Assembly: GCF_025753855.1 (NCBI RefSeq)
Contig: NZ_JAOWPT010000019.1
Location: forward strand, 1-64,000
Direction of reading: 5' to 3'
Length of the DNA stretch: 64,000 nt
Source: Mesorhizobium sp. ZC-5
Lineage (GTDB): Bacteria > Pseudomonadota > Alphaproteobacteria > Rhizobiales > Rhizobiaceae
Shown: one piece after another, positions 1,631 through 44,395 of the stretch
Position numbering within the stretch: position 1 is the stretch's first letter
How the letters are laid out: each line of letters starts with the position of its first letter
Position numbers and translations under genes: made by a program
The notes under the pieces: model-generated
Databases searched by the model: none
The model's input: only the letters and a program-made list of their open reading frames with translations
What the model was told of the DNA's origin: nothing

Positions 1631-1708
1631 CGCTATAGCAACGCCCCGCTCCTTGATCAATCTCACCGCCTCAAGCTTGAACTCGCGGCTGAACTTCCTT
1701 CTCTCCAT
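1631..1708 (-). pseudogene. IS3-family orfA, N-terminal fragment
   Basis: The first ~26 residues (MERRKFSREFKLEAVRLIKERG) are the typical N-terminus of an IS3-family OrfA helix-turn-helix protein. After that the frame loses any resemblance to the family. Only the start of the gene survives, next to other IS debris. Confidence 0.6.
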
Positions 1709-1777
1709 GGGAAAACTCCGGTTCCATCTTCAACACCTTAACTCGGTGTCCATGGAACCGGCAGCAGGCCAAACGAC

Positions 1778-24990: not shown

Positions 24991-25011
24991 GTTGCTACTT
25001 GCAGAGTGCCT

Positions 25012-26133
25012 ATGCGGATCGACCTTGGGGTCGTCGCGTTGATCGAGGACTCCGAACCTGTAGTCACGGCGGTCTTGTTGGCGCGTGGGCTCTGCGAGAT
25101 CTACGACCGTATCGCCCAGGAAGGCGAGATCGTTCAACAAGGGGCTTCGATGCCACCGATCGCTCGAAGGGCGCTGGCCCGTCTGTCGCGGCATTGCCTG
25201 ACCGAAGGAGTCGATGACTTGGGGTCGAGCATCCACCTGGTGATGGGGGCAGCGTCGCGGGCGATGGGGTTTTGGGGCATCCCCAGCTTCGCCGGAGACT
25301 TCAAGTACAGCGACGTGGAGTTGGTGGACGACGCCTCGGGCGTTCCGACCGCCGACTGCAGGGAACTGGCGCGGCTGGGCGGAAGCGAGTTCGATGCCAT
25401 CGAAGACATCCATCATGAGCAGTTGAGGGTCGCGGTCCAGAGCTATCCGGCTGCTCAGCGGGATCGAGCTTACACCACCATCCGGGAATTCGTGGTGCGG
25501 CGGCCGGTTTGCAGTCTGGACGCCCTGCACAGGTTTATCACGAACGATCACCTGCACGGCGCGCGCGCGATCGCTGCCCTTTACCGGCCAATTCCTCAGA
25601 CTGCGATGGCAAATGGCTCCGCCCGGCTGTGCGGACGTTGCGGGTCTCTGCTCTGGCCGACCAGTGATCCCGCGTTCCCCAATGGACGATGCAGAGTGCG
25701 TCGGTGCGCCATCCGTGGGGAAACGATCGTGGGCGACGGCATCGCTGATCCTTCGTTGTTTCGACTCGCCACGGGTGCCGTTCTGGCCTTCTGGGTGGGA
25801 CCCGGGCTCGACGAGGTGGCGTTGCATGACCACCTCGCTGGCCAAGGCCGATCCGTTTCCCTCTACCCCATGTCCGATGCTGCGGACGTCGGGCTCGACG
25901 GGCTGGAGGTTGGTCTGGACGTGAAAAGCTACGCGAGCCCGCTCGTCCTCGGCGCTCGATTGTCCAGAGGTGTTGGGCGTCTCAGTATCTTCGGTCGGAA
26001 GATCATCGTCGTCCCAGACTACAAGGTGCGGCTGAACCCCCGCTACATCGACGATCTCCGAGCATCGTACGTAGGTGCAGAAGACTTGGAGTTCATGACG
26101 GTTGCCTCCGTCATCGAGGAATTCTCGGCATGA
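25012..26133 (+). CDS. PIWI-RE island protein: zinc ribbon plus restriction-endonuclease-fold nuclease
   Basis: 373 residues. The N-terminal ~200 are helical and fit the partner domain of pPIWI-RE islands. Then come C207-x2-C210 and C227-x4-C232, a zinc ribbon. The last third looks like an REase fold: GLDEVALHDHL (candidate first Glu), then LDGLEVGLDVKSYASP with D296/D303 and K305 giving a D-x-K core, and KIIVVPDYK. In known three-gene pPIWI-RE islands a small REase protein accompanies the helicase and the PIWI protein. Start: ATG 25012 or GTG 25006. Its 3' end overlaps the helicase gene (ATGA). Activity on DNA is inferred. Confidence 0.75.
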   Translation: MRIDLGVVALIEDSEPVVTAVLLARGLCEIYDRIAQEGEIVQQGASMPPIARRALARLSRHCLTEGVDDLGSSIHLVMGAASRAMGFWGIPSFAGDFKYSDVELVDDASGVPTADCRELARLGGSEFDAIEDIHHEQLRVAVQSYPAAQRDRAYTTIREFVVRRPVCSLDALHRFITNDHLHGARAIAALYRPIPQTAMANGSARLCGRCGSLLWPTSDPAFPNGRCRVRRCAIRGETIVGDGIADPSLFRLATGAVLAFWVGPGLDEVALHDHLAGQGRSVSLYPMSDAADVGLDGLEVGLDVKSYASPLVLGARLSRGVGRLSIFGRKIIVVPDYKVRLNPRYIDDLRASYVGAEDLEFMTVASVIEEFSA

Positions 26134-29100
26134 GAGCGCAGCCGAAGGACTTTGTGGGAGCCCTGGGGGCGCAATGGTTGTGCGCGGCCATGGACACCAT
26201 CCTTGGGGCGAAGCATCTTCGCGATGCCCCAGCCTTGATGTCGGGCTTCGGCTCAGTGCTGGACAGCGCAACGCTTAAGGGCTTCGCGGAAGCGGCCACG
26301 GCCCTTCGTCTGCTCGGCGTCGTGGCTGCATCGGAGATTCAGCTGCGTCAGCTGGTCTACTCGGCGCTTAGCTGGGAGGAGGACCACCGCCACCTGCCCG
26401 ATTACAGGGAGCCGCCGTACAGGATCGATGCATCAGATCCTCGGTTCCCGTTCCGCAGGCGAGTCCCGGACGACGACCCAGAACTGGTCGCGATGATGGC
26501 TGCGCTCAAGAACCCTTTGGCGTTTAGATCATGGTCGCTCACGGCGGCCGATCCGACACGATCTATGATAGTCGAGGTGGGTCCCTCAGGATCGAGCGAG
26601 AGGATCTCCGTTGATCTCGAAAGCTTCCTTCCAGATGCTCCGCCGCGTTTCGATTTCACCAGGGAGCCGCGTGGTGCCATCGAAGTACCGGTATCTGAAC
26701 TGATCCTCGTGGCCGAGGAACTCGACGAGATGGATCGGCGGCAGCCGGGACGACCGCCCGGCAACTGGGCGGCCCGGATGCGCGAGGCGAATGGCGCTCT
26801 GAAGGTGGAGATGCTCTCACCCGATAGGGCCACTGGTCGCCTGGTCGCGAAGGACACCATTCGGCTAGACGGGCTGCGGCACCTGATCGGTCTCCCCGGC
26901 ACCGGCAAGACCACGTTGATCGTGCTGTTGCTCATGTGGCTGAGCGCACGGGATTACCGCGTCGTCGTACTGCTGCCATCCATTGAGACATCGTTGAACC
27001 TGCTTGGCGACCTGCGCAAATACGGCGCTGATGTCGGTCTGCTGATGGGCCAATCGCCGCAGACGCGCATAGATCACGCTCGAAAACTTGCCGATCGCAT
27101 TGGCGCAACCGAGACCAAAGGGTTCGGCGCAACGGCGGAGGGCGCGGAATTGTTGGCACTGAACTGCGCCTTGGGCGGCTTCGAACAGGATGCTCAACCA
27201 GAACGCGAGTTTCCTCACCTGTCGCCCCCGTGCACGTCCGTGCTTCAGCGCTCGGCCAGGGCGGATGGCTCGCTGCGACCAACTGAAACGGCCCATCTCT
27301 GTCCACTGTCGGCGCACTGTGGCCGCCTGAGAGCGCCGAGGGAACTTACCGATCACAACATCTGGTTGGGCCATGTACTATCGATGGACACCCGGATCAG
27401 CCCGCACTTCAGCGATGATCGGATTCGACATTTCGAAGCGGTGGCCATGAATTCCGATCTGGTCATGGTTGATGAGGCGGACGGAGCGCAAGCCGTCCTC
27501 GACCGCAAGGCCGTGGCGTCGCTCGATCTGACCGGCAGCGAGTCCAGTTACGAGCACGCGCTCAATCGAGATCTCTTCGTTCCGTTGTCGACCGGGCGAA
27601 CCGACGTAGCGGCAGGCAGCATCCAGCAGTACGGTCGAGCAGCGTCCGACTTCCGCAGCTTGAATCACAGCCTGGTCGGGCACCTTCAGAACCTGAGGCT
27701 CCGAAGCGGAGTGGAGACGCCGCTATCGCGGTTCGAGGATACCTTCGTCACCGGCAACAACATCCTCACGGCCATCTTCAGCCCAGAGGACATTTCCATC
27801 CTGTCGGGCTCCCAACGCGAGAGCGAAGAAAGACGCTTCAACGCCATCCGGGCGTTCTGGGACGGCTGCATCCGCGCGGCCCTGATGCGCCGCACGGACG
27901 AGGACCAGGACGTCGACGGATACGGCTTCGATCCCGAGCGCATCGCCATCGACCTAGGCAGGAGCAAGGGCGAGGTGTCGGCGACCGCAACGGCCATAGC
28001 GGGGCTGACGCGCGACTGGATCTCGGAGCCGCTGGCTGCGCAGCGTGATCAGTACTTGGAGCAGGTACGCAGCGAATTCTTCAAGCTCGTCGAACCTGGC
28101 GCTCATCTGGGGCGTGACGAGGTCGTCGAGCTCTTCCGTTTTCTCGTCGGCGTGACCACCGTCGTCATGCAGTTTCTTGCGCTAATCCCTGCTCAGCAGG
28201 CCATGGTGGCCGAGGGCGTTCACAGGGAGCCGCTGTTCCAGCAAGGCATTTCGGAGGACCTCGGGCGGCTGGTTCCGGAGGCGCTGATCGGTCGGCTCTC
28301 CGGAGTCCGGTTCCGCTATGAGGACGAAGGCCTCCGGTCCAAGGTTCGCCTGCAATACGTGTCGTTCCGCGGCGCTCCCAGGGTGCTGCTGTATCGTCTT
28401 GGCAGGTTGTTGAGGCATCAAGGCCGTGCAAGGGGCCCCAATGTCCTGCTTGCGAGTGCAACTTCGTACTTGGCGGAGAGTCCAACTTTCCATATCCCCG
28501 TCGGGCCTGACATCGTCCTGCGTCGCACCGGGCGGGACGCGGGGTCGCGCCAGTCGAAGTACGTGTTCGCGCCGATACCAGACACATCGAACCCAAGCCG
28601 GATGCTGCGGTTCAGCGGCTCGTCGACCACCGAGCAAGACAGAGTGCTCAAGAAGATGGTCGAGCACTACTTCCTCGGCGAACACCCGTTGGCGATGCAA
28701 ATGGTGACCGACTTCGATCCTGGCCGCAAGGTCGGCATGGTGGTGAACAGCTATGAGCAGGTGATGAAGATCAAGGCCCATATCAAGAGGATAAGGCCAG
28801 ATTTGGCGGGCCGCGTGATCGGCGTGGCGAACAGGCCGCCCGATCAGAACGATGGGGATTGGATCAGTGCCGCACAGGTCGAGCGCCTGAGCGCTAGGGA
28901 CAATTGGGACGTCCTCCTCTTCCCGATGAAGGCGCTCGCAAGAGGGGTGAACATCGTCTTCGAATCGGGGCCTAGGGTCCGCGATGCCTTGCTCGGGACC
29001 CTCGTGTTCCTAATTCGTCCGCATCCGGCATCGGAGAGCCTGGACCTCGTCGCGGGTATTGCCGGTCAACAGTCGTTGGCATTCGACATGCGGCATTTCC

Positions 29101-29522
29101 GCGACGAGGAAGGATACGAGGACTTGGCGACCGCTTGGCGCCACGCGCGTCGCGAGCTTTCATCAGTCACACGACGCCTGTTGCGGTTCCCACTGCAGGC
29201 CAGCCGACTAGGCGAGCTCGCGATACCCTTCACGGCGGACATAATGGTCGACGTGCTTCAGACCATCGGCAGAGCGATGCGCAATGGAGCAGCCGCGCGG
29301 GCGATCTTCGTGGACGCTGCATGGGCACCTCGCTCCGCGGCAGGTGCTCAGGACAACTTCCGGAGCAGCATGCTGGTGGCGATGCGGGACATCCTGCGCA
29401 ATCGTATTCACGACGATGACGCCGTCGATGCCGAAATCTATGGGGCTCTCTACTCGCCCTTCTACGATCCGCTGCGCCGCTGCGCGGGCGTAGCATTCTC
29501 GGATGGACCACTAGATGAGTGA
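26130..29522 (+). CDS. DinG/XPD-like superfamily 2 helicase of the PIWI-RE island
   Basis: 1,130 residues. A ~240-residue N-terminal region without motifs (the place of the island-specific domain in pPIWI-RE helicases) precedes the Walker A GLPGTGKTTL (K260). Between motifs I and II are four cysteines, C346, C368, C391 and C397, positioned as in the Fe-S domain of XPD/DinG helicases. Motif II is VDEAD (D448, E449) and motif VI is QTIGRAMRNG (Q1044, R1048, R1051). It is expected to unwind DNA or DNA/RNA hybrids 5' to 3', probably to give the PIWI protein access to its target. The start overlaps the nuclease gene and the stop overlaps the giant gene. Confidence 0.85.
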   Translation: MRAQPKDFVGALGAQWLCAAMDTILGAKHLRDAPALMSGFGSVLDSATLKGFAEAATALRLLGVVAASEIQLRQLVYSALSWEEDHRHLPDYREPPYRIDASDPRFPFRRRVPDDDPELVAMMAALKNPLAFRSWSLTAADPTRSMIVEVGPSGSSERISVDLESFLPDAPPRFDFTREPRGAIEVPVSELILVAEELDEMDRRQPGRPPGNWAARMREANGALKVEMLSPDRATGRLVAKDTIRLDGLRHLIGLPGTGKTTLIVLLLMWLSARDYRVVVLLPSIETSLNLLGDLRKYGADVGLLMGQSPQTRIDHARKLADRIGATETKGFGATAEGAELLALNCALGGFEQDAQPEREFPHLSPPCTSVLQRSARADGSLRPTETAHLCPLSAHCGRLRAPRELTDHNIWLGHVLSMDTRISPHFSDDRIRHFEAVAMNSDLVMVDEADGAQAVLDRKAVASLDLTGSESSYEHALNRDLFVPLSTGRTDVAAGSIQQYGRAASDFRSLNHSLVGHLQNLRLRSGVETPLSRFEDTFVTGNNILTAIFSPEDISILSGSQRESEERRFNAIRAFWDGCIRAALMRRTDEDQDVDGYGFDPERIAIDLGRSKGEVSATATAIAGLTRDWISEPLAAQRDQYLEQVRSEFFKLVEPGAHLGRDEVVELFRFLVGVTTVVMQFLALIPAQQAMVAEGVHREPLFQQGISEDLGRLVPEALIGRLSGVRFRYEDEGLRSKVRLQYVSFRGAPRVLLYRLGRLLRHQGRARGPNVLLASATSYLAESPTFHIPVGPDIVLRRTGRDAGSRQSKYVFAPIPDTSNPSRMLRFSGSSTTEQDRVLKKMVEHYFLGEHPLAMQMVTDFDPGRKVGMVVNSYEQVMKIKAHIKRIRPDLAGRVIGVANRPPDQNDGDWISAAQVERLSARDNWDVLLFPMKALARGVNIVFESGPRVRDALLGTLVFLIRPHPASESLDLVAGIAGQQSLAFDMRHFRDEEGYEDLATAWRHARRELSSVTRRLLRFPLQASRLGELAIPFTADIMVDVLQTIGRAMRNGAAARAIFVDAAWAPRSAAGAQDNFRSSMLVAMRDILRNRIHDDDAVDAEIYGALYSPFYDPLRRCAGVAFSDGPLDE

Positions 29523-32500
29523 CCGACTGCCAGACATCCTGTACCGCGGCGTGAAAGGCAGTCGGTCTGGAGGAAGGGAAACCGTCGTCTCTGCGCTGCA
29601 GTTCGACGGCGAGGCCGGCGATCCCGTGGAGGCTGAACGCGTCACGTGGACAACGCGCGCTGCGGCATTGATGAGGGAACTCGCTCAGGCGGGTGACGCT
29701 TCCGAGAGGGAAGGGGGGCACGCGTTGCCATACGCTTCCCTGCGGGCGTCGATCGCGTCGCAGGTGCCAGAAGCATTGGTCCTGGAGCGCGACCTGGGTG
29801 CGCCTTGGTCAGACCAGCCAAGAGCATTGATGGATGTGCCGAGCAGCGGCGATCTCAAGGAGAGACTGGGAAGGGCGCTCACACTGTGGGTAGGGTCGGC
29901 ATTGCGCCCATGGGCTACAAGAGTCGGTGCGCCCGAGCAGCTCGTGGATGCGATCGACGTCTTGGCCTCGAACGCCTTTTCCTGGCAACGCCGCTCGGTA
30001 GTTCTTGGAGGAGCTTTGACGTCCGACAGTTTCGTGGAGGCGCGGGATGCCATCATCCACACCTTCGCGCGTTGCCTCGAAGGCAAAGTGCTCTTCGAGG
30101 GCATGGGGCCGGTTCGGCGGATTGTTCGGGGTCGCAGTTCGTCCAATCAGATCGACTTCATCACCTGGCCGAGGCGGCACGGCGAAGCACTCTATTCGAT
30201 GGTGGCCACGATCACGGTCGAGACCGTTCCGTTCTCCGAAAAGCCGATCGCCACAGTGCGCGCGTCCCGTCGGCGCTGGATGCAGGAGGTTCCAACCGGT
30301 CGAGTCCTCATCGGTCAGAGCAACGTGAGCCTTACGCTCATGGCCCAGAACGGTGCGAAAGTGTGCTTGGAAGTACCAGCGCCGGTGCGATCGCAGCAGG
30401 TTCAAGACCCGATCACGCCTGAATTCCTCGGGCACCTGCTCGGCACGGGCGCCGACATCGGCAGCAGCATGGCCGAGCAGGTGGAGAGGGGTGCCAGTTC
30501 TTCCCACTTCTTCGGCATCCCGTACTCGCCGCGTTTCGGTTCCCATCCCATCGGCGCGGGCGTTTCAACGAGAGATCAGACCGATCTCTTCGATGTCGTG
30601 CAGCAGATTATGGGCGGCCTCGGATTCGTCGCGATACCGTTTGAGGAGACAACCACGACCAAGCAGGTGCCGAAGCGGGCCGAGGAACTCCACAAGGCAT
30701 TGGAGACCGAGGCGCTGCTGTCCGACATCGCCATTGCAGTAGGGCGAAACGATCTTGCGGACGATGCATCCATCCGAGCCGCGTGGGACTCCCTGGATCT
30801 TGGCGAGTATGGTCCGATCATAAGCGCCACGGCCGCGTCCAAGGCCCGCGAGAAGCTGCTAGAGGTCAGAACCGCCAACGCCCAACGGGTGTCCAGAGCT
30901 TTCGGTGAGAAGAAGCCATCGGTGGTGGCGATTGCTCGTAGCGAGAACGAGCGCCGCCTGCTCGAATCTGTCCTGCGAACCCTATTCGGGACAAGTATCG
31001 AGGTGAGCACTCGTCCGCTGCCCAGCGATGTGCACGGATCACGCGCGACCCTTCCGCTGTCCGAAGCGAAGAATGGTCAACGCTTCGAGGCTCGTGTCGC
31101 CGCATGGCGACCTCTTGCCGAGCTGCTTAACCAGATCGACGGTGGCTGTCACGCGCTGGTGCAGGCGACCGACTGGTATGATGGACGACCAGACGATCCA
31201 GTCAACAAGCCGGCCGGTCGGTACGCACTCGCCGCGGAGGCCAACGCGAACGTGCAATATCTGCGACCTAGGGCGTCGGGTCATAGAGGATTCGCGAACT
31301 ACCTCCACCGGATACAAGCGGCGACGTACGATCTGATATTCGGTCATGCAGGACTGGTCTCCGATGTCGCGAACGTGGTCGCCGATGCGTTCCGGGACAG
31401 CACGGAGGAGCCAACATCGTTGATCGGGATATCCGTCCTCACTCAGGCGCGCACCCGACTGGCAGGCAAGGGCGGCAAGCTCTGCATCGCGACCCGGGTC
31501 GATTGCGAGAACGGTCGGACCACGGCACGGGTGGGCTGGTACGACGGCGAGATGAAGTGGTCCGCGAGATGGGAGCCGCTGTTCAAAGCCTTGAAGCGGA
31601 TCGCAAGCCCTTCGATCAAGGCGTCATTGGGGAGCGGCCTTGCGACCGAACGCGCCAGTTTCCAGGCGTTCGTGCGCGAGATCTTGGACGATTGCGTTGA
31701 AGTCGGCGACCGCCCCCTCGTCATGATCGACAGCACTGGGGCAGCCTCCCTGTGGCCCTGGCTTAAGGACGGTCAAATCTCCGGCGAGATCACTCTTGGT
31801 TCGGAACGCCTGGACGCCTCTCGTCGATGGCCCGGCGCCAGATTGGTTCGCGTGCGCTTGGGCAATGCGGCTCGGATCGCCGAGCGCAAGACCACTGACT
31901 ATGTCGCGGTTGCCACCGACACGGGAGCCGAGACCGGTGAGATCCTCCGCCGGTACTGCCCCACCATAGTCGCGAGGACGGTCAAGCTCTCGTCGTCGCG
32001 CACTGGCGCTCATTACTGGGCGACAGCGGGATATTTCCAGATGTCGCTGCCAAGAGGACTGAGCGTCTATCGGCGTCTGGTCTCACTGGTTCACGTGGCC
32101 AAGGCGTTCAAGGACGCTCCTCAACCCATGGAGAAGCTCTTTGCGCCGATCGAGATACCGATCTTTGACGTGAGCTACCGGCTCCCGAACCCGATCGAGA
32201 TCACCGTCGCCAGCACACGGGAGGGGGACGATCCCGATCGCATTGCCCACCTCGTCGCCAGCCTCAGGTACGGCTATGGGCATACCGCGTCCGCCACGTC
32301 CTTGCCCGCCCCACTATCGTTCGAGTCCAAGGCGCGCGATTACATGACGCGCTTCGCTCTTGATCTGTCCCCGGAGGAGGACGACGAGGCCGCCGAAGTC
32401 GGGCAAGGACCAACGGTCGACGACGGCACGTATGCCGACGAGGGCGCGCCGGATGATGCCGGTGCTGGCGGTGGGGCATCCGACAAGCAGGCCTGGGACG

Positions 32501-35500
32501 GCATACTTGCCAGCAAACCGGGGGTGACGGTCCTCAATGCTCCGCTATGGCCTAGGGACGCCGGCGCGCCCATCTTCAAGCCCAGCGATCGGTCTGAGAC
32601 CGCTGTGCACATGTTCCATCAAGCGCCGAAGGTGAATAGGGAGCGGCCAAACGACGACGGCGATGAAGAAGCGCCTACTTGGTCGGAACTTGCGGGAGTC
32701 ATCCGTCTCCCGGACTTCGTGACCGAGGAATGGCTCTCCGAGTTTGTGCAGATTCCGAATGCACAGCTCAGGGCCATTCATCAGTCTCGATCGGAACTGG
32801 CGACATTGACCGGCTTCGATGGCTGGCCGGACCTCCGGCCCGACCAGAACGACTTCGTGCCGATCCTGTTGAATGGACTGAGGTATCCACGGTTCGCCGC
32901 CGCGATCTGTCAGATCGCCAAACGAAGCATGGCTTCGAACAAGGCTAAGCAGTGGAGCCCCTTCAACCCTCTCTGGCGCCAAGCGATCACGGCGGCGAAA
33001 TCCACGGTCCGGTCCGATGCGTCCCTCTCCAGACCCGACACCTTCTGGAATTTCCTCGATATCCTGTTGAAGGGCGACGCGGTCCGACTCGCCAAGGCTC
33101 AAGTCGTGCTTGGCGCCTATGAGCACCCGTTCGACGCAGCGATCATCGGCACGATCAAGAACGATGGGCGGCTCGGGGACGTTCGCGAGTTCGCGACCGA
33201 CGCCGCCGAGCACCTTTTTCGTTCCGACTACGAATGGTCCGGCGACATTCGCCGCTTCCCACCCAAGCCGACTGGCGAGGGTGAGGTGCAACCTGCTCAA
33301 GTCGAGTTCGCCGACCCCGAAGGGCCATCCATCAACACGGCCCGTCAAACCCAAACGGAGCATGTCCCCATGATTGGTACCAATGCAGTTGGCCATTCAG
33401 CACCTGCCTTGGACATGGGAACGGAAATTGATATGGCGTCCGACGCACCCGATGGGACGACGTCGATCGACGATGAAGCCGCTTGGCGCAGCGCCATGGG
33501 CAGCATCCTACGATTTGCCGACCCCGACGCGGGGCCCGACGAAGGCGTCCTAGCCAAGATCGAGGAGCAGCTCGAAGCCGCGCGGCAGGCGCTTGTTCGA
33601 TACGATGCGTCCAAAAAGAAGGCTGTGTCCGCTCAAGCCTTGTTGGAACGCTCCCAAGCGATACTCGAACACGCCAAGGCAGTTCTAGTCGATGCCGGGG
33701 TCGAGAACGAGGATTTCGGTAGCGTTCCGACCGGGTCCTTCAGCGCGACGATCGATCTTGAAGCAGCGGCCTCGATCGAAGAGACGCTTGCGTCGGCGGA
33801 GGAAATTGGGAGCGCTGCGCGGGAGAAGATCGACAAGGCGCAACGCATCCTCCGGCAAATGCTGATGACTCGACTGGACGAAGCCTCCGCTCTGAGGATA
33901 CAAGCGATCGAAGCGGGTCGTAGCGTGATCGCCTCCGTGATCGAGGTGCTGCAGCGATTGGCGCCGGTCCCGCGGCCCTCCGGGGACAGGCAGTTCGAGG
34001 CTTCGGTTGATTCAGCCGAACCGCCCGCGTCGGACGAGCCGCCTTCTCTCGCAGCGGACGCGCCGGAAGCCGACGAGACCTTCTCGACACCGCTGGACGA
34101 TGTCGGCGAAATCTCTTCGAAGCGCGATTGGGATTCCTCCAATGAGCTGGATGAATTCACGCCCGTCGAGGATGCCGATCTCGTCCTCGATCGGTTCGCA
34201 ACCGAGCCGGACGAGGGCGAAGATGCATTGGCATCCGGTCCGGATCCGATGGTGGCGAAGCTCGAAGAACGATTCGAGGAATTCGTCGTCACACAGAGGT
34301 TCGGGCTTGCATTCCACTTGTCCGAGGCGGCGCGTCGAGCTGGCCTGCACCAGGATTTCGCCGTTTCCCTGCCGGAATTGAAGCTTGCTGCCTTCGCGGG
34401 CCGCTTCAACCACTCTGCCCACCAGGGCAGCTCCGTGGTCCACGATCTGATGACCGAGGCCGCGCTGGTGTTCGAGAGCCTCGATGACGAGCAATCAACG
34501 ACCACGGCGAGGCGGATCATGGGACTGGCTTCACTCGCACCATTCGCGATCTTCCATGGGGAGTCCGACGCCAAGGCCGCCCTTGAATCCCTGCGTCAGG
34601 TGGGGCCGGGCCTTGGGAAAGCAGTCCATGGGCTGAGGGAGGCCTTGGCAGCTCCGCTCAGATCCGGGATCTCGCTCAGTCCTTCCCTGCTTCGGCTGGC
34701 GCGCGAGGATGCACAGGACGACGAGTACACGCGCATCCTTGCTGACAAGATCAAGCATGCCTTAGAGGAATTCGGGGCCAAGCGCTACAAGTTCCAGTTG
34801 GGGAACAAGCTTCGTGGTGCCCTTACCAACCGTGATGGCGCCTTAGGCAACCTTGGGGCGCGGGTCGAACGAGGCGGGCAGTCGGCATTGGACGCCGCCC
34901 GAAAGTTCGCTGCCCAGTACAACGACCGTAGCTCTGTCATCCACCTCCTCGAGGAGACGGAGAAGCGGGTCGCAACATACAAGCTCACAGGCATCGATGG
35001 CATCGCCAGAGAGAAGCTCGTCGGCCTCATCCAGTCGCTGGCGCAACTCTGCGCGGAATACGTCGATTCCGCCGACGCTGCGCCAGTGATGAAAGGCATG
35101 AGGGCCAATATTCAGAAGGCGAGGTCCGGCATCACCGACGCGGTCGATACCCTGGATGGCGCGCTCGCGCAGTTTCCAGCGGCCACCGCTCTGGAGGCAT
35201 CCGCCGTCAAGTTCGCACGAGAAGCCTTCGACAGCTTCAAAAAAACGCTGAACGGCGGGGAATCCACCCCTAGTCCAGTCGATCATCTGGTTGCTCTGCA
35301 TGGGCAGCTCCTATGGGTATCGGCGCTCAACTTCGGCCGCGGTTGGTATCCGGCGCCGTACGCGCCAGAAACTGTCACGAGCGCGCTCGTCGGATTGGGC
35401 TCGGACCAAATCCATGGCGCCGCCGATGGGGCTGCCTTCGATACCGCGATCCGGAAGCGACTGGCTGTCGGGTCGCACATCGCAGCGTCGATGATGATCG

Positions 35501-38500
35501 AAATGGCGGTATCGTTCGGGGTTGCCGACTTCGATCCCGAAGGCCTGTCCGAACTTCGCCTTGCAGATGAGGAGACGAAGAGGGATTCGCTCGAGGCGGA
35601 TCTTCGTGACGCAAGGTTGATGGTCGACCGCGTCCAACGAATGGGAGGTGTCGGTTCCATCGACGAAGCGCAGTCGCTTCTCTCCCTGCTGGATCGGATC
35701 GAACCCAGGACATTGCCCGAGATCGTGCCCTTGGAGGCACGAACGGAAGCAACGGAGGACGACGAGCAGATACTCGACTTCAGGGCGGCGTACGGGTTAG
35801 TCGCGGACGTCAAGAGCAAGGTCGACGTCCTTCTCACCCGTCCCCGCGAACAGCTGCTGGCTCGGCTGGGGGTGTTGGAGTCCAGGAGGACGGCCGCTGC
35901 TGGTGATCTGGAGACGGTGCGTGGATTGGTGCAACGTGACGATCTCTTGACGGCGACCGAATACGTAGAGTTCCTCGAGAACGGTCGCGGGCTGCCTGAG
36001 ACCACCTCGCCCAACCCTCGATACAGAGCGTACTTCCCGAAGGTGCCCGATGCGTTGGCGGAGATGTCTCGCACCGAGCAGGATCGCATACTTTCAGTGA
36101 TCGAAGGGGGCGGCGAGTTCGCCGGTCTGAACTTCGGACGGATCGCTGCGGATCGTCGCGCTGATGTGGTGAACCTGCTGGAGGAGTGGAACGAGCTCAA
36201 GCGAGCGGTCGCCTCGTTGCGACAAGAAGCAGACGTCGCAGGCCGCCTCGTGCGGTTGCTCGAAGGCTTCGGACTGAATGTCGTGCTGCGGTCACCGAAT
36301 CCGCGCGGCAATCGCAAGTTCTACACCGTGGACATGCATGTGGACCTGTTGCCGGACAGCGCCTCGGTACTTCTTCCAGACTTCGGCAGTCTTACGGGGG
36401 GAGAGTATCGCTTCTGCATCGGCCCCAAGATGCCCACCGATGGCGAGGTTGCCGGCATCGAGGCCGATGCAGGAGCCCTCCGGCTAGTCTTCGTCGTGAC
36501 CGATATGGTTCCGTCCGAGCGTCGGCGGCAGCAGCATCTGTCCAGTCTGGAGAAATCAAGGCGGCTGCTCGCGATCGACGAGTCCATCGTCTATTTCACG
36601 CTTTCCGAGCCCGAATCGCGCGGACTGACCTTGTTCGAATTGGCTCAGCCTTTCTCCTTCGCGGATCCTTACCGCGACTATGGCAACCAGGCCGTGCCGA
36701 GAGAGATGTTCTTCGGGCGCGCCGAGGAGCGCAGAAAGCTTCTTGAGCCGCATGGCAGTTGCATCGTCTACGGCGGGCGACGCCTGGGCAAGACCGCGCT
36801 GCTACGTCATCTGCAATCCGAGGAGGATGACCCCGGAGCCGGCACAGCGGTGGCGTACGTGAACATCAACGACATCGGGACCAATGCTGGCGAAGAGCAG
36901 ATATGGGAATCGATGTCCCGCGAACTGAAGCCGATCTTCTCGAAACCGGTCGAGCAGAGCGATCGGTTCAGCGAGACGATCCGGCGCTGGCTGGCGGGGG
37001 ACAGCAAGCGGCGGGTGCTGGTGCTCCTGGACGAGTCCGATAGGTTCATCCAGGCCGATGCAACCAAGGATTTTGTCCAGTTTATTCGTCTGCAAAGGCT
37101 AATGGACGATACGAACCGACGGTTCAAGTTCGTGCTCGCGGGTCTGCACAACGTGACGCGGCTCGTGCACACCGAGAACCCGCCCCTCAAGCATATCGCA
37201 TCCGATCCCCAGCGTATCGGGCCGCTCATGGACGACGAGCTTGGGGATGCCGAGGCATTGGTCAAGCGTCCATTGGCGGGCATGGGTTATGAGTTCGAGA
37301 ACCGTGAGGACGTCTGGCGCATCCTCAGCTACTGCAACTACTACCCGGTCCTGGTGCAGAAATTCTGCGAGGGCCTGGTTCGGGAACTGGTCAAGGAAAC
37401 GTTGAAGAAGCGACGGCCCATAACCGGGATCACGTCGGACCACGTTCGCCTGGCGCTGGAGAACGAGACGATAGCGAAGGAGATCGGCGAGACCTTCGAT
37501 TTCACGATCAGCAAGATCGAGGACCGGTACTCCCTCATCGCGAACATCGTCGCCGAGCGAGCCCTGCGCGATGCCGCGGACGGCCGAGTGGGTGAAGGCA
37601 TGACCGCAGTGGAGGTCCGCGACGCCGCCGCGTCTTGGTGGCCAGCGGCCTTCGGGGAGGCCAATCGCCTCTCGGTGGCAGAGGATCTGCTCGACGAGAT
37701 GGAGGGATTGGGAGTGCTGCGTCGCGTGCAGCCCGATCGCTGGGCGCTTCGTTCGCCGACGATCCTCCGGCTCCTTGGCAACGACGACAAGATCGCGGCC
37801 AAGCTCGGCGAGTTCATGGATCGCAATGCCCCACCGGTCTTCGACCCGCGGTCGATGCGCCGAAAGCTCAAAGCAAATGCGGCCATGCGCATACAGGAGG
37901 GCGGGATGAGTCCGCTCACCTTGGGTCAGGAGCACGACATGCTGCGGGACAGGGTCCCTGCCACACTGATCTTCGGCAATGCGCTCTCCGACATCGGGAT
38001 GGTTACAGGCGCCCTCTCCTCCGCCTCGAGCTCCCGGGAGGACAAGCGCGGTACCGGGCACGTCACGGCCCGGTCGTTCCAGTCGATGGATGCCATGCTC
38101 AAGGACCTCAAGGGGCCGTTGCCCGGAGAGCCCGCCGCGCTTCTCGTCGTTCATGACGCCAGTCCATGGAACGCCGCGTGGGTCGAGGGGGCACTCCGCG
38201 CCAGATCGGTCCGCGAGGGGAAGGTTCGATTGATCTTCGTGGGGCAACCGGAACACGCCCTGGATTGGGTCCGCGACCCGAGCAGCAAAGCACTGTCCAA
38301 AGAGGTGAAGATCGTGCCGTTGCAGACCTGGTCCACAACTCTAGCGGACCATTTCCTGCATCAGGAGCATCTCGATCCGATGCACTTCAGGGCTTCGTTG
38401 CAGGCCGCAACCGGCGGTTTCAACCGGCTGATGCAGCAATTGTTCACCACGGGAGGAACTGTGAACGCCAAATCCCTGGCGACGAGGCTCGAGAATACGG

Positions 38501-38796
38501 CAGTTCGACGTCGCCGCGATCCAGCGTTGCCGGGCGAACTGGGCCTCGCAGGGGCGATGTACGACATATTCAAGGCCGTAGCGGTATACACGGAGGGCGA
38601 TATCACCGCCTATGAGATAGGTGAAGGACCGGTTGCGGAGCTTGGTGCCAACCTCGCGGGGCAGCAGGTCGTCGATTTCGGAGTGATGATGGGTCTGCTC
38701 GAGGCACAGGGAGCAGGGTCGGCTCGCGACGAGGACAGCCGACCGTACCGTTTGAACGCGCTCGCCAGATCGTTGCTCGGGGCCGGAGGTTCGTAG
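29515..38796 (+). CDS. Giant pPIWI-RE fusion protein (PIWI-RE + coiled-coil/helical region + AAA/STAND ATPase)
   Basis: 3,093 residues. Residues 1-945 fit pPIWI-RE: an N-terminal/MID-like part; an RNase H-like core starting PLVMIDSTGAASLWPWL (D739); then SSSRTGAHYWATAGYF (R829), PNPIEITVAS (E895) and the closing LPAPLSFESKARDYM. R829 and E895 are my candidates for the R and E that name the family. An acidic linker (about 948-990) follows, then long helical stretches (strong coiled-coil near 1,350-1,400). Next is FFGRAEERRKLL with Walker A GGRRLGKTAL (K2426) and Walker B VLVLLDESDRF (D2506), as in AAA/STAND or Orc-like ATPases, then winged-helix-like segments to the end. Usual pPIWI-RE proteins stop near 800-1,100 residues. 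Overlaps both neighbours. Confidence 0.75.
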   Translation: MSDRLPDILYRGVKGSRSGGRETVVSALQFDGEAGDPVEAERVTWTTRAAALMRELAQAGDASEREGGHALPYASLRASIASQVPEALVLERDLGAPWSDQPRALMDVPSSGDLKERLGRALTLWVGSALRPWATRVGAPEQLVDAIDVLASNAFSWQRRSVVLGGALTSDSFVEARDAIIHTFARCLEGKVLFEGMGPVRRIVRGRSSSNQIDFITWPRRHGEALYSMVATITVETVPFSEKPIATVRASRRRWMQEVPTGRVLIGQSNVSLTLMAQNGAKVCLEVPAPVRSQQVQDPITPEFLGHLLGTGADIGSSMAEQVERGASSSHFFGIPYSPRFGSHPIGAGVSTRDQTDLFDVVQQIMGGLGFVAIPFEETTTTKQVPKRAEELHKALETEALLSDIAIAVGRNDLADDASIRAAWDSLDLGEYGPIISATAASKAREKLLEVRTANAQRVSRAFGEKKPSVVAIARSENERRLLESVLRTLFGTSIEVSTRPLPSDVHGSRATLPLSEAKNGQRFEARVAAWRPLAELLNQIDGGCHALVQATDWYDGRPDDPVNKPAGRYALAAEANANVQYLRPRASGHRGFANYLHRIQAATYDLIFGHAGLVSDVANVVADAFRDSTEEPTSLIGISVLTQARTRLAGKGGKLCIATRVDCENGRTTARVGWYDGEMKWSARWEPLFKALKRIASPSIKASLGSGLATERASFQAFVREILDDCVEVGDRPLVMIDSTGAASLWPWLKDGQISGEITLGSERLDASRRWPGARLVRVRLGNAARIAERKTTDYVAVATDTGAETGEILRRYCPTIVARTVKLSSSRTGAHYWATAGYFQMSLPRGLSVYRRLVSLVHVAKAFKDAPQPMEKLFAPIEIPIFDVSYRLPNPIEITVASTREGDDPDRIAHLVASLRYGYGHTASATSLPAPLSFESKARDYMTRFALDLSPEEDDEAAEVGQGPTVDDGTYADEGAPDDAGAGGGASDKQAWDGILASKPGVTVLNAPLWPRDAGAPIFKPSDRSETAVHMFHQAPKVNRERPNDDGDEEAPTWSELAGVIRLPDFVTEEWLSEFVQIPNAQLRAIHQSRSELATLTGFDGWPDLRPDQNDFVPILLNGLRYPRFAAAICQIAKRSMASNKAKQWSPFNPLWRQAITAAKSTVRSDASLSRPDTFWNFLDILLKGDAVRLAKAQVVLGAYEHPFDAAIIGTIKNDGRLGDVREFATDAAEHLFRSDYEWSGDIRRFPPKPTGEGEVQPAQVEFADPEGPSINTARQTQTEHVPMIGTNAVGHSAPALDMGTEIDMASDAPDGTTSIDDEAAWRSAMGSILRFADPDAGPDEGVLAKIEEQLEAARQALVRYDASKKKAVSAQALLERSQAILEHAKAVLVDAGVENEDFGSVPTGSFSATIDLEAAASIEETLASAEEIGSAAREKIDKAQRILRQMLMTRLDEASALRIQAIEAGRSVIASVIEVLQRLAPVPRPSGDRQFEASVDSAEPPASDEPPSLAADAPEADETFSTPLDDVGEISSKRDWDSSNELDEFTPVEDADLVLDRFATEPDEGEDALASGPDPMVAKLEERFEEFVVTQRFGLAFHLSEAARRAGLHQDFAVSLPELKLAAFAGRFNHSAHQGSSVVHDLMTEAALVFESLDDEQSTTTARRIMGLASLAPFAIFHGESDAKAALESLRQVGPGLGKAVHGLREALAAPLRSGISLSPSLLRLAREDAQDDEYTRILADKIKHALEEFGAKRYKFQLGNKLRGALTNRDGALGNLGARVERGGQSALDAARKFAAQYNDRSSVIHLLEETEKRVATYKLTGIDGIAREKLVGLIQSLAQLCAEYVDSADAAPVMKGMRANIQKARSGITDAVDTLDGALAQFPAATALEASAVKFAREAFDSFKKTLNGGESTPSPVDHLVALHGQLLWVSALNFGRGWYPAPYAPETVTSALVGLGSDQIHGAADGAAFDTAIRKRLAVGSHIAASMMIEMAVSFGVADFDPEGLSELRLADEETKRDSLEADLRDARLMVDRVQRMGGVGSIDEAQSLLSLLDRIEPRTLPEIVPLEARTEATEDDEQILDFRAAYGLVADVKSKVDVLLTRPREQLLARLGVLESRRTAAAGDLETVRGLVQRDDLLTATEYVEFLENGRGLPETTSPNPRYRAYFPKVPDALAEMSRTEQDRILSVIEGGGEFAGLNFGRIAADRRADVVNLLEEWNELKRAVASLRQEADVAGRLVRLLEGFGLNVVLRSPNPRGNRKFYTVDMHVDLLPDSASVLLPDFGSLTGGEYRFCIGPKMPTDGEVAGIEADAGALRLVFVVTDMVPSERRRQQHLSSLEKSRRLLAIDESIVYFTLSEPESRGLTLFELAQPFSFADPYRDYGNQAVPREMFFGRAEERRKLLEPHGSCIVYGGRRLGKTALLRHLQSEEDDPGAGTAVAYVNINDIGTNAGEEQIWESMSRELKPIFSKPVEQSDRFSETIRRWLAGDSKRRVLVLLDESDRFIQADATKDFVQFIRLQRLMDDTNRRFKFVLAGLHNVTRLVHTENPPLKHIASDPQRIGPLMDDELGDAEALVKRPLAGMGYEFENREDVWRILSYCNYYPVLVQKFCEGLVRELVKETLKKRRPITGITSDHVRLALENETIAKEIGETFDFTISKIEDRYSLIANIVAERALRDAADGRVGEGMTAVEVRDAAASWWPAAFGEANRLSVAEDLLDEMEGLGVLRRVQPDRWALRSPTILRLLGNDDKIAAKLGEFMDRNAPPVFDPRSMRRKLKANAAMRIQEGGMSPLTLGQEHDMLRDRVPATLIFGNALSDIGMVTGALSSASSSREDKRGTGHVTARSFQSMDAMLKDLKGPLPGEPAALLVVHDASPWNAAWVEGALRARSVREGKVRLIFVGQPEHALDWVRDPSSKALSKEVKIVPLQTWSTTLADHFLHQEHLDPMHFRASLQAATGGFNRLMQQLFTTGGTVNAKSLATRLENTAVRRRRDPALPGELGLAGAMYDIFKAVAVYTEGDITAYEIGEGPVAELGANLAGQQVVDFGVMMGLLEAQGAGSARDEDSRPYRLNALARSLLGAGGS

Positions 38797-40424
38797 TGAC
38801 CATCGACTGGGGCAGCGTGGACTGGTGGGATCTACCAGGACCATCAGCGTTTCTAGGACGTGCCGTCGACCGGCTGGCTTCCGACGACGGCGGCTTGATC
38901 GGGCTCTCCTTCCCAATACGACGGCCAACCGGCCTGATCCTAGCCCTCGTATCTGCTTTGGAGCAGGGGCGAGGGCTTCGTGCAATCCTGGTAGACGCCC
39001 GGAACGCCAGCGGCGCCCGATCGCCTGCTCACGCCTTGGCCGCAGCTGCTGGGGCGCCACCCGGAAGCATCCGATCCACCAATGACTTCATCGAGTCGGC
39101 CGCCCTTGCGAACGCCGTGTTCCTCATCGACGAGCTGGGTGTTGAGCAGTGGAACCAATGGAGCCTCTTCTTCCGCACCTTCCGCAATGAGCGAACCCGG
39201 TCCGGAAGGATCTCGGCCCCCAGCCTGGGGGTGCTTACACCGCTGACTCTCCCTCTCGATGAGGTCGAAGCGGTTTTTGGTTCATCCGAGGTGAAATGGC
39301 GAGACGTGGTCTCCCGAGCGGATATGCACCTCTTCGTCGAGTCGCGGCTCGGACGGTCCGGTCGTCTCGCGGAGCGGGCAGCCGTAGCGACTGTCGCGGA
39401 AGTCGCATGCTGGGACCCTGGGATTGCGCTTCAACTCACTGAACGCCCTATAGGGGACCAGATCGACCCGCGTCAGCTCCTCAGCGCACTGGAACTCAAG
39501 CTTGGAACGCCCTCTTGGTCGAACGGGCTCGTCGACCTGATGGACGGAGCTCCGCACATGCACACTCTGGCGCTCCTGGGCTCCAGGGAGCTCTTGGCAC
39601 GACGGGTATGGCGGGCACACGTCGCGACCATCTTCCCCGCGATTGAACAGATCCGCCAAGCGTTCGTGGAAAGGTACTTCGGCAAGCTCACCTCGATCCT
39701 GCCTGTCACCAAGACCTTCCAGAACAACACGCAGCGAACGTACCACCATCCCCTCGAGCTTGAGATCAATGACGTCTTCTATCATCTGAAGGATGAGATC
39801 CCGCCGCTCGAAGCGAACCTTCTCCGAGACCTCAAGACGCTGAGGACATCGATGGCCCATATGGAGCCCGGCGACGCTTCGCTCATCGTCAGGGCATCCA
39901 GGAGCTGGCAGATGATGCTTGGGGATACCGAGGGCTTCGCCGGCGGCGTCGGTTGGGATTGGCCGCGCTGCGGTCAACGCCTCGTCCTGCTGGTCGGTCC
40001 GTCCGGGGCGGGCAAGAGCTCCTATGCCGCGGCCAATTACTCGACCGAGCTGGTGATATCCGCCGATGCGATCCGCGAAGAGCTCTATGGCAGCCACAAT
40101 ATGACCGGAGGTCAGGAGGCCGTGTTCAACACGGTGCGGCAACGTGCAAGACTTGCACTCGCCGCAGGGAACAGCGTGGTGATCGACGCCACCAACCTCA
40201 GACGCAACGACCGTCTACTCAACGCCACCTTGGTCCCGGCCGACATCGCGGTCGACTACGTGCTCATCGATCGTCCGATGGCGGAGAAGCTGCGCGATGG
40301 CGGTTGGCGTCTGGAAAAGAAAGGCCTCATCGAGGGCCACACCAACCTCCTGCTCGGGGAACTTGGTGACATCCTGGCGGGCGATGGCCTGCCGAATGTG
40401 ACCGTTCTCGATCGACGAACCTAG
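38796..40424 (+). CDS. PIWI-RE operon protein with C-terminal polynucleotide-kinase-like P-loop domain
   Basis: 542 residues. The C-terminal ~150 carry LLVGPSGAGKSSYAA (Walker A, K407), then VISADAIREELYG and VVIDATNLRRNDR. This is the pattern of AAA_33/T4 polynucleotide-kinase-like kinases, in which DATN and the following arginines bind the substrate. The N-terminal ~300 start DWGSVDWWDLPGPSAFLGRAV and contain FLIDELG like a Walker B, without a Walker A, so this half may be a degenerate ATPase partnering the giant ATPase. The GTG start shares one base with the stop of the giant gene. A role in phosphorylating guide or cleaved ends is inference. Confidence 0.75.
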   Translation: MTIDWGSVDWWDLPGPSAFLGRAVDRLASDDGGLIGLSFPIRRPTGLILALVSALEQGRGLRAILVDARNASGARSPAHALAAAAGAPPGSIRSTNDFIESAALANAVFLIDELGVEQWNQWSLFFRTFRNERTRSGRISAPSLGVLTPLTLPLDEVEAVFGSSEVKWRDVVSRADMHLFVESRLGRSGRLAERAAVATVAEVACWDPGIALQLTERPIGDQIDPRQLLSALELKLGTPSWSNGLVDLMDGAPHMHTLALLGSRELLARRVWRAHVATIFPAIEQIRQAFVERYFGKLTSILPVTKTFQNNTQRTYHHPLELEINDVFYHLKDEIPPLEANLLRDLKTLRTSMAHMEPGDASLIVRASRSWQMMLGDTEGFAGGVGWDWPRCGQRLVLLVGPSGAGKSSYAAANYSTELVISADAIREELYGSHNMTGGQEAVFNTVRQRARLALAAGNSVVIDATNLRRNDRLLNATLVPADIAVDYVLIDRPMAEKLRDGGWRLEKKGLIEGHTNLLLGELGDILAGDGLPNVTVLDRRT

Positions 40425-40540
40425 ATCCGTCCAGACGCGGATGCCAGCAGTGGCGAAGAGCGACTGCCAATGGGTTGGATCGATAGCCTGCGTATTCCGG
40501 TGATGCCGGACGGCTATTCCAATCTGAAGCCGGACAGTGA
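40425..40540. other. IS21-like terminal sequence interrupted by the IS3 element
   Basis: The reverse complement contains GTCCGGCTTCAGATTGGAAT followed by CCGTCCGG. A matching block in inverted orientation (GTCCGG..GAT.GGAAT..CGTCCGG) occurs just right of the IS3 element at 41932-41965. The pair looks like the two ends of an older insertion sequence. Confidence 0.4.
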
Positions 40541-40610
40541 TGGAGTGCACCCCCAGACTGAGACAAGGAAAATCGCGGACAGTTTCCCCGCAAGGAGAGG
40601 AAACTGGGGT

Positions 40611-41006
40611 ATGGCCGGACGGCAAAGAGTTATTGATGATGACCAAAAGCTGGAGCTTCTCCGGCGCATGGAGGCGGGCGAAACCGTCAGCAAGTTGGCA
40701 GATGAGGTTGGTATCAGTCGCCAACGACTTTACGAGTGGCGCGATCATCTCAGGCTTCATGGTAATCTGAGGTCACGTCGGCGCGGCGGCCGGCCAGGAC
40801 AGCAGGAGAGTGCAGTCGATGTGCCGTCACCTCAGGAAAAGGCACTGAGCAGGGTCAGGCGCCGGATCAGGGAACTGGAGCAGAAGGTCGGGCAGCAGCA
40901 GCTCGATCTCGATTTTTTTCGCGAAGCCTTGCGGCACTTCGAGGAAGATCAGCGTCGGAGCAGCGCTCTTGGCGAAACGGCATCTTCAAAGTCATCGAAA
41001 AGATGA
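40611..41006 (+). CDS. IS3-family transposase OrfA
   Basis: 131 residues from ATG 40611 (GGAGAGG upstream). Contains a helix-turn-helix (KLADEVGISRQRLYEWRDHL) for terminal-repeat binding and a C-terminal leucine-zipper-like helix (RVRRRIRELEQKVGQQQLDLDF cut to its heptads). The last codons overlap orfB. Confidence 0.9.
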   Translation: MAGRQRVIDDDQKLELLRRMEAGETVSKLADEVGISRQRLYEWRDHLRLHGNLRSRRRGGRPGQQESAVDVPSPQEKALSRVRRRIRELEQKVGQQQLDLDFFREALRHFEEDQRRSSALGETASSKSSKR

Positions 41007-41872
41007 TGACCGGCCTGTCGCAAGGCGAATTCAACATCGACAGAATGTGCTGGCTCGCTGGTGTCAGCCGCGCGAGCTATTATCGTCACTGGCTGGATTC
41101 GGCCCCGCGTCGGGCCGAGACGGGTTTGCGCGATCTCATTCAGAAGCTGGCTCTCGGCAACACACACTACGGCTACCGCCGGATTGGAGCCCTGCTTCGG
41201 CGGGAGGGGTGGCGAGTCAATCACAAATGCGTTCTACGGATCATGCGTGAAGACAATCTGCTGTGCTTGCGCGCTAGACCCTTTGCGCCTGTGACGACCA
41301 ACTCCAGGCATGGTTGGCAAGTCGTGCCGAACCTCGCGAGGGGAATGATCCTCAATGGCGTAAACCAGCTATGGGTTGCCGATATCACCTTCCTGCATCT
41401 GGCCGAGGAGTTTGCCTTCCTTGCCGTTGTCCTTGACGCGTTTAGCCGCAAGGTTGTCGGATGGGCGCTGGATACGCATCTTAGAGCAAGCCTTGCCATC
41501 GGGGCTCTCGAGATAGCGATCGCTGATCGCCAGCCCGTACCCGGGAGCCTCATCCATCATTCCGACCGGGGGGTTCAATACGCGTGCGGGGCCTACTCCG
41601 AACTTCTGCATCGCCGCGGCATCCAGGCGAGCATGAGCCGTGTCGGCAATCCTTACGACAATGCGAAGGCGGAGAGCTTCATGAAAACCCTGAAACAGGA
41701 AGAGGTGCAAGGTCTCGCCTATAAGGATGCAGATGATGCCCGCAAGCACATCGGTGCTTTCATAGAGACCGTTTACAATACGCAGCGCCTGCATTCGGCG
41801 CTCGACTACCTCAGCCCGGAGGAATACGAACAGAAGCATTCACGCGGGCGACAGATGGAAAAGGCTGCATAG
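41003..41872 (+). CDS. IS3-family transposase OrfB (DDE integrase core)
   Basis: 289 residues. The DDE triad is visible in WVADITFLH, IHHSDRGVQYA and PYDNAKAESFMKTLKQEE, with an HTH_21 segment (HYGYRRIGALLRREG) before it. It starts four bases before the end of orfA (ATGA overlap), so it is made by coupling rather than only by a frameshifted fusion. Intact, probably active. Confidence 0.92.
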   Translation: MMTGLSQGEFNIDRMCWLAGVSRASYYRHWLDSAPRRAETGLRDLIQKLALGNTHYGYRRIGALLRREGWRVNHKCVLRIMREDNLLCLRARPFAPVTTNSRHGWQVVPNLARGMILNGVNQLWVADITFLHLAEEFAFLAVVLDAFSRKVVGWALDTHLRASLAIGALEIAIADRQPVPGSLIHHSDRGVQYACGAYSELLHRRGIQASMSRVGNPYDNAKAESFMKTLKQEEVQGLAYKDADDARKHIGAFIETVYNTQRLHSALDYLSPEEYEQKHSRGRQMEKAA

Positions 41873-41927
41873 CTTAACACGGGAGCTGTCCGCGATTTTC
41901 CTTGTCTCAGTCTGGGGGTGCACTCCA

Positions 41928-43402: not shown

Positions 43403-43423
43403 CAATTAAGAGGAGTGCGTAGC

Positions 43424-44389: not shown

Positions 44390-44395
44390 GGCAAT

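Follow-up and report, generated by a model that had tools for sequence, protein, structure and literature searches.

The 64,000-nucleotide window analysed here (positions 1 to 64,000 of contig NZ_JAOWPT010000019.1 of Mesorhizobium sp. ZC-5) contains an operon in which a prokaryotic PIWI-RE (pPIWI-RE) protein is joined to a giant ATPase and accompanied by a polynucleotide kinase. Its architecture is best explained by a single event in this branch, in which an entire pPIWI-RE island of three genes became attached to the N-terminus of a giant STAND/ORC-type ATPase. That ATPase has an older partner with a HEPN-like domain, to which a polynucleotide kinase is added in the same branch. Its putative role, likely from its context, is defence against phages or plasmids. 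We tentatively favour, at a little short of an even chance, a derived pPIWI-RE restriction system in which PIWI-guided recognition would lead to ATPase-gated cutting by the helicase and the restriction endonuclease (REase), with the kinase conditioning 5' ends. The operon bears on how bacterial Argonautes obtain guides and on what pPIWI-RE systems do, as a switch-type ATPase is here in fixed linkage with a module resembling Argonaute, a kinase for 5' ends and a candidate RNase. Its four genes are:

25006..26133, + strand, REase gene (GTG start at 25006; in-frame ATG at 25012)
26130..29522, + strand, DinG-type superfamily 2 (SF2) helicase gene (open frame)
29515..38796, + strand, giant PIWI-RE/STAND-type ATPase fusion of 3093 amino acids (single open frame)
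38796..40424, + strand, partner protein of 542 amino acids: N-domain, HEPN-like domain and polynucleotide kinase

A variant of the three-gene pPIWI-RE island

The four + strand reading frames are open across 25006-40424 and overlap by 4, 8 and 1 bases, exactly as in a preliminary description made from the sequence, which took the ATG at 25012 as its start. That description had also claimed a zinc ribbon and a D-x-K core in the REase, four cysteines between motifs I and II of the helicase, a PIWI-RE-like N-terminus on a huge ATPase, and a P-loop kinase as the fourth product; sequence and fold comparisons establish these parts and their order. The active-site residues of the REase, helicase, ATPase and kinase are all intact in the window sequence. 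The REase protein matches Pfam PF18154 (7.7e-15) and PF18156 (3.9e-11) and the PADLOC model PprRE (6e-55), and consists of a Y domain, a zinc ribbon from about residue 208 and a PD-(D/E)xK REase with the motif GLDVK. All 22 aligned REases have the D-x-K, and 21 of them have the four zinc-ribbon cysteines, the exception being a second copy in Azospirillum oryzae COC8. This second REase (L100, in the genome of L012) lies about 64 kb from the first under the same contig number, and perhaps belongs to a classical island in that strain. The helicase matches PADLOC PprDinG (9e-170) and pPIWI_RE_Z (3e-7), with Walker A at residues 254-262, DEAD near 446, motif VI near 1044 and Fe-S cysteines; the four cysteines between motifs I and II are conserved in all 16 rows that cover them (the alignment has 20 rows, 4 of them cut off by locus ends before this stretch).

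The N-terminal third of the operon's giant protein is laid out as follows:

29629..30309, + strand, pPIWI_RE_X domain, residues 39-265 (Pfam PF13111, 5.7e-20)
30967..31368, + strand, MID domain, residues 485-618 (Pfam PF18157, 8.1e-12)
31420..32349, + strand, PIWI RNaseH domain, residues 636-945 (Pfam PF13032, 9.4e-33)
32386..32649, + strand, acidic and glycine-rich linker from the PIWI-RE module to the ATPase, residues ~958-1045 (from the sequence)

Thus pPIWI-RE profiles do match residues 1-945, with bit scores above the curated cut-offs (72 against 30.5 for PF13111, 46 against 26.6 for PF18157 and 115 against 25 for PF13032), and PADLOC PprPIWI matches at 4e-59. A profile search finds a single RNaseH match in the window's genome (3.4e-34), and the RNaseH family had no matches in 14 control genomes. 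Among the 19 aligned fused modules the MID residues D561, R569 and Q581 are kept in all and K565 in 18. D663 and D739 form a candidate catalytic pair, mapped by spacing and alignment onto D525 and D610 of Pseudomonas stutzeri PIWI-RE (PsPIWI-RE), and R779, present in 19 of 19, is a candidate for the arginine of 'RE', which lies in the beta-sheet extension of PIWI.

According to a proposal by Burroughs, Iyer and Aravind (2013, PMC3702460), RNA-DNA hybrids are recognised by pPIWI-RE islands, which bring in DinG and the REase. The window operon has the same order of REase, DinG helicase and pPIWI-RE genes with overlapping ends, and all of the X, Y, Z, zinc ribbon, MID and RNaseH domains (PMC3702460). 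It departs from the classic island in two ways: its PIWI-RE module continues into a STAND/ORC-type ATPase of about 2,050 residues, and the operon has an additional fourth gene, overlapping the third, for a HEPN-like/kinase protein. It is therefore a variant and not a three-gene pPIWI-RE island in the strict sense. Profile and neighbourhood searches bear out the idea of a derived island with an ATPase fusion. Fusions described for pPIWI-RE islands include a rare zincin fusion and helix-turn-helix fusions of the REase (PMC3702460). P. stutzeri PIWI-RE belongs to the same family and the window keeps the two Asp mapped to its catalytic pair, but it was studied as a single protein and the available text does not mention an ATPase fusion (PMC10991935). 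The available parts of the PIWI-RE literature (PMC3702460, PMC10991935 and PMC10573157 included; subscription papers and preprints outside the scope) likewise mention neither an ATPase fusion nor a kinase component, and a literature search pairing Argonaute or PIWI with STAND NTPases gave nothing related in the texts available.

The giant ATPase and its HEPN-like partner

The remainder of the giant protein and the functional domains of the partner are:

32650..38793, + strand, region homologous to standalone giant ATPases, residues ~1046-3093 (blastp)
34243..36669, + strand, mostly helical middle region, residues 1577-2385 (self-built profile GMID)
36670..37929, + strand, STAND/ORC-type ATPase core and winged helix, residues 2386-2805 (GGRRLGKT from 2420; LLDESD with D2506/E2507)
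37930..38793, + strand, C-terminal tail, residues 2806-3093 (weak hhalign match to the ATPase core, P 3e-4)
39564..39920, + strand, HEPN-like domain of the partner, residues 257-375 (R350-T-S-M-A-H355)
39969..40421, + strand, polynucleotide kinase domain of the partner, residues 392-542 (P-loop GPSGAGKSS from 401; D424, R427)

In blastp a 1970-residue Agrobacterium ATPase aligns from residue 1062 of the giant and a 1927-residue Salinibacter protein over residues 2135-2976. An AAA-like core in which the Walker A and B motifs are conserved, together with a winged helix, places this part among the STAND/ORC-type P-loop NTPases. Pfam gives AAA_22 above its cut-off (5e-7, residues 2413-2549) and lists no nSTAND model for the giant. 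An AlphaFold model of residues 1577-2760 (predicted local distance difference test score 86.5) has, among the fold matches listed, ORC2 (17.0), NRC4 (16.4), CED-4 (15.2) and MuB (14.8). The matches to STAND, ORC-Cdc6 and NLR-type ATPases (2qen, 2fna, ORC2, the NRC4 resistosome and CED-4) skip the giant's helical part before the core and its tail, and, because MuB and TnsC also score 14-15, the fold list alone is not specific to immune receptors. The helical region 1577-2385 is a candidate sensor or assembly region, and residues 2806-3093 are possibly a second, degenerate P-loop domain. A search of the PDB sequences with the ATPase profile gave three weak matches only; the same ATPase was unmatched in a phage collection, a viral contig collection held just two distant relatives (one of them L119, discussed below), and the profile matches once in the window's genome.

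The partner is more than the kinase gene of the preliminary description: its polynucleotide-kinase-like character stands, and the kinase is an added C-terminal domain of what is at base a HEPN-like partner of the giant ATPase. HEPN motifs have the form R-x4-6-H with a polar N, D or H after the R (PMC6277466). The R and H are invariant in the partner alignment (40 of 40), and R-x4-H is found in 74 of 74 partners, detected with a profile whose source sequences all carry it. Three hhalign runs of the partner against HEPN_Swt1 gave P values of 9e-5, 2e-5 and 7e-5 (probability 32-63%) with a best value of 0.0095 among 29 control segments, where the HEPN_Swt1 profile comprises 4 sequences and two of the control segments overlap the start of the HEPN-like domain. 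Pfam HEPN_Swt1 matches one relative at 0.0014, below the cut-off. HEPN proteins are absent from the partner fold matches listed, a list filled by the kinase domain. The similarity between the partner's N-domain and the giant's tail has a P of 0.056.

The kinase domain matches AAA_33 (2e-14), and its nearest fold is CthPnkp; the Pnkp-type kinase fold, P-loop and D..R are all present, as in CthPnkp and T4 polynucleotide kinase. It differs from those enzymes in having neither phosphatase nor ligase and in sitting behind a HEPN-like domain. The NCBIfam model of bacterial Pnkp (TIGR04075) gives 45 bits against a cut-off of 750, over the kinase part only, and the protein is not a full kinase-phosphatase; no ligase or phosphatase domain was matched among the operon proteins. 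The P-loop and D..R are intact in all 20 PIWI-linked partners of the main branch defined below, and a kinase accompanies PIWI in 20 of 21 fusions. In three intact PIWI-less units (L006, L022 and L023) D..R is altered and R-x4-H retained.

Distribution and history of the fusion

When 84,980 species genomes were searched with the ATPase core, 410 relatives came up. The analysis covers the best 80 of these, so that family counts given here describe the nearest relatives; the self-built profiles were made from 4 to 7 sequences. PIWI is fused to the ATPase in 17 of these 80 genome loci, one of which (L017) is a copy of plasmid locus L003. There are 20 non-duplicate PIWI-linked loci (the window and plasmid loci L002, L003 and L005 included), and every one has helicase, partner and kinase matches. 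The order REase, helicase, giant, partner occurs on plasmids of Azospirillum ramasamyi, Microvirga sp. VF16, Bradyrhizobium elkanii and A. oryzae, and in 16 of 16 genome-contig genomes checked a pPIWI-RE REase lies at or just past the helicase end of the locus. The REase is thus adjacent in every locus checked, 16 genome loci and four read directly. The four genes therefore do recur together, as had been predicted, in 20 of 21 fusion loci, L119 being the exception. This linkage of the REase to the locus in the checked genomes rules out chance adjacency of the four genes. An assembly or annotation artefact is also ruled out: because the same fusion is present in 20 non-duplicate loci (19 of them as one open frame), and in L119 in one frame, the fusion is real. 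In the A. ramasamyi giant (L002) an in-frame stop lies within the PIWI RNaseH domain at about 10760-10787; the break is a stop and not a frame change, since the tblastn match is one piece in one frame, and the A. oryzae frame is intact. On Bradyrhizobium plasmids we note two remnants, L004 (16854-19632) and L008 (14905-15645), in which just the 3' part of the giant and/or the partner is left.

Trees were built by quick IQ-TREE searches with SH-aLRT (approximate likelihood ratio test) support only; L017, L001 and L129 (the last two being the window itself) were dropped, L002 was left out of the PIWI alignment, and the 80-row tree further omits L033, L036, L070, L076 and L080, which are too short before the core. 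In the tree of 80 ATPases the 20 PIWI-fused proteins fall on one branch (support 100). Nested within it are the PIWI-less, kinase-bearing L006, L022 and L023, which are sister to the PIWI-bearing L018, and the cut contig L014, which is probably a cut fusion because its genome has an REase. The tree of PIWI modules puts 19 in one group (support 99), with clades largely as in the ATPase tree. The simplest reading of the main branch is a single fusion, after which the part with PIWI, REase and helicase was lost once. The nearest kin of the window locus, among the best 80, are Sphingomonadales loci.

Most of the ATPase relatives have no PIWI. There are 65 loci without a PIWI match (63 of the 80 genome loci, and L006 and L007), where 'without' means no PIWI profile match in the available DNA and the giant's frame reaches the sequence start in L033, L036, L061, L066 and L083; a HEPN-like partner is found in 55 of them and a kinase in four (L006, L014, L022 and L023). 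The ATPase also occurs without PIWI in plasmid loci L093-L097, and a partner was matched in two of these. Conversely, the classic plasmid islands L090, L091, L092 and L099 have PIWI, REase and helicase matches and no ATPase or partner match. By these comparisons the ATPase and its HEPN-like partner are an older unit of their own, which goes beyond the preliminary description, as does the HEPN-like domain in the kinase protein; the 'ATP-driven sensor/motor' proposed there is an ATPase indeed, now refined to a STAND/ORC-type family that occurs mostly without PIWI. As a two-gene unit of giant ATPase and HEPN-like protein (most of L029-L088) it is seen in Planctomycetota, Actinomycetota, Myxococcota, Acidobacteriota and others. 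The representatives scanned, two standalone ATPases and three partners, had no match among the PADLOC 2.0 models, and the present operon thus leads to a widespread ATPase/HEPN-like unit that these models did not recognise in those representatives.

Five Rhodobacterales-type loci (L064, L071, L081, L085 and L086) have a DruE-like helicase of about 1,690 residues directly upstream of the same ATPase family, that of L086 matching PADLOC DruE1 at 6e-163. No HEPN-like partner was matched in these five, and the DruE-like helicase may be another effector using the same ATPase. Membership of the window operon itself in Druantia or BREX was considered and not adopted, its PADLOC matches beyond the pPIWI-RE models being just weak ones to the ATPase and kinase (E 0.004 or worse).

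The exceptional fusion L119 comes from the viral-contig collection (2657-13383). Its open frame of 3181 residues matches PIWI (8e-103) and the ATPase core (1e-64), and a HEPN-like partner with the motif RDAIAH follows it. Its ATPase groups with that of the PIWI-less L034 (support 96) and its PIWI module is placed beside the fused group (support 97), in both cases on a very long branch. The PIWI-ATPase and the HEPN-like partner look like the core of the system, from which kinase, helicase and REase can be absent, and L119 is possibly a minimal PIWI-switch-HEPN system.

These comparisons raise an alternative that we judge possible and somewhat unlikely, namely abortive infection, in which PIWI-RE would be a sensor only, the ATPase and the HEPN-like RNase would halt or kill the infected cell (something that the PIWI-less two-gene unit may do by itself), and the REase, helicase and kinase would be additions of this branch. 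The occurrence of the ATPase unit in 65 PIWI-less loci, 55 of them with a detectable partner, fits this explanation, as do the N, D or H that follows the motif R in 63 of 74 partners, the composition of L119 and the known bacterial combinations of STAND and HEPN (PMC3710099). In the window and its nearest kin, however, that residue is T, S, M or R, and every PIWI-fused locus examined in this branch retains the REase with its D-x-K, a sign that cutting of DNA is still important here.

Proposed mechanism and genomic setting

In the derived restriction system that we favour, the PIWI-RE module would first grip the 5' end of a guide and recognise invading nucleic acid, probably as RNA-DNA hybrids. 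Because PIWI and the ATPase share one chain, recognition would then trigger ATP-dependent switching or oligomerisation of the ATPase, and the assembled complex would allow the helicase and REase to unwind the invader and cut it. These three steps are the part of the proposal to which we commit. In a fourth and least certain step the kinase may phosphorylate 5'-OH ends, most simply those of RNA that the HEPN-like domain or a different RNase has cut, making them usable as guides or for further processing.

Several observations weigh against this proposal. L119 has no kinase domain match, no trace of a helicase within 2.6 kb upstream even with filters off, and, throughout its record of 44,495 bases (possibly a fragment), nothing that matches the REase; because it shows none of the three, the fusion does not need kinase, helicase or REase everywhere. 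L119 represents an early form or else a second, independent fusion, and the fusion may have arisen twice. Both putative catalytic Asp of PIWI are kept in just 12 of 19 fused proteins (the window among them), and the residue mapped as the E of 'RE' (position 895, its column inferred) is E in 11 of 19, D in 4, G in 3 and N in 1. The window's HEPN-like motif has T at the polar position where N, D or H is usual, and because of this replacement its HEPN-like domain may be inactive. The broken PIWI-less remnants L004 and L008 keep the D..R of the kinase, as does L014, and decay of the kinase after PIWI loss is a single event on the tree. PsPIWI-RE, the single PIWI-RE characterised biochemically, binds 5'-P and 5'-OH RNA with dissociation constants of 64 nM and 86 nM and cleaves with both (PMC10991935); since it handles the two alike, the kinase is not obviously needed for guide loading. 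Finally, the knockout phenotype of P. stutzeri PIWI-RE is ciprofloxacin sensitivity (PMC10991935).

A more elaborate version of the fourth step takes the eukaryotic rRNA processing pair Las1-Grc3 as its model, in which the HEPN RNase Las1 leaves 5'-OH ends and the kinase Grc3 phosphorylates them (PMC10942766). Both there and here a HEPN-type motif (a candidate one in the window) and a 5'-OH kinase belong to one machine, but Las1 and Grc3 are two proteins whereas the window has one polypeptide, in which HEPN activity is a prediction, and common descent is unsupported. In such a one-chain guide factory, HEPN would cut invader RNA, the kinase would phosphorylate the products, PIWI-RE would load them as guides, and pairing would flip the ATPase and so license the helicase and REase. 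If true, a bacterial Argonaute system would here supply itself with guides and be switched in the manner of an immune receptor. We consider it improbable, because PsPIWI-RE, an RNA-guided DNA nuclease and DNA-guided RNA nuclease, has no clear 5'-phosphate preference (PMC10991935), because the window has T in its HEPN motif, and because L119 is kinase-free. The kinase could instead be a repair or counter-measure enzyme that heals ends, as Pnkp or T4 Pnk, guarding the host against nicks or RNA breaks caused by an invader or by the system itself, and has no role in guide supply. The resemblance of its fold to CthPnkp, the dispensability of 5'-P guides for PsPIWI-RE (PMC10991935) and the occurrence of PIWI without a kinase in L119 are in keeping with such a role, but the operon has no matched ligase or phosphatase domain and in the three intact units that lost PIWI the residues of the kinase have changed though the HEPN-like motif stays; on balance we think a repair kinase quite unlikely. 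Natural variants usable as controls exist: loci with no PIWI, PIWI without the kinase, an altered kinase and an altered HEPN motif.

The ciprofloxacin phenotype, and the fact that R-loops are substrates of DinG helicases (PMC3702460), would also suit a housekeeping or replication role in R-loop resolution or chromosome segregation rather than defence. The distribution of pPIWI-RE is rare and patchy, which speaks against such a role: it was found in 3 of 398 evenly sampled genomes of the window's phylum (one being the window's own and one below cut-off), in 2 of 385 from its class, one of them again the window's own, and in 1 of 101 relatives, where the match was the window's own genome. These loci in addition occur on plasmids and have CBASS, restriction and toxin-antitoxin genes as neighbours, and we regard a housekeeping role as very improbable. 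The ATPase profile reaches E 0.001 in 15 of the 398 phylum genomes and is strong in two only, one of them the window's own.

Beyond the operon, the window contains the following features:

40516..41952, no strand assigned, insertion element with 72-nucleotide inverted ends (86% complementary) and an rve transposase, 92 nucleotides past the operon
42406..43317, - strand, WYL-domain regulator (Pfam PF13280, 5e-9)
43415..45846, + strand, cyclase, HORMA and TRIP13-like ATPase genes of a cyclic oligonucleotide-based antiphage signalling system (CBASS; PADLOC 3e-133, 2e-68 and 1e-128)

No tRNA genes were found in the window, and a PADLOC scan of the first open reading frame of the insertion element matched nothing. 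The last three genes confirm the position beside CBASS given by the preliminary description. WYL genes also accompany related operons, where they lie upstream.

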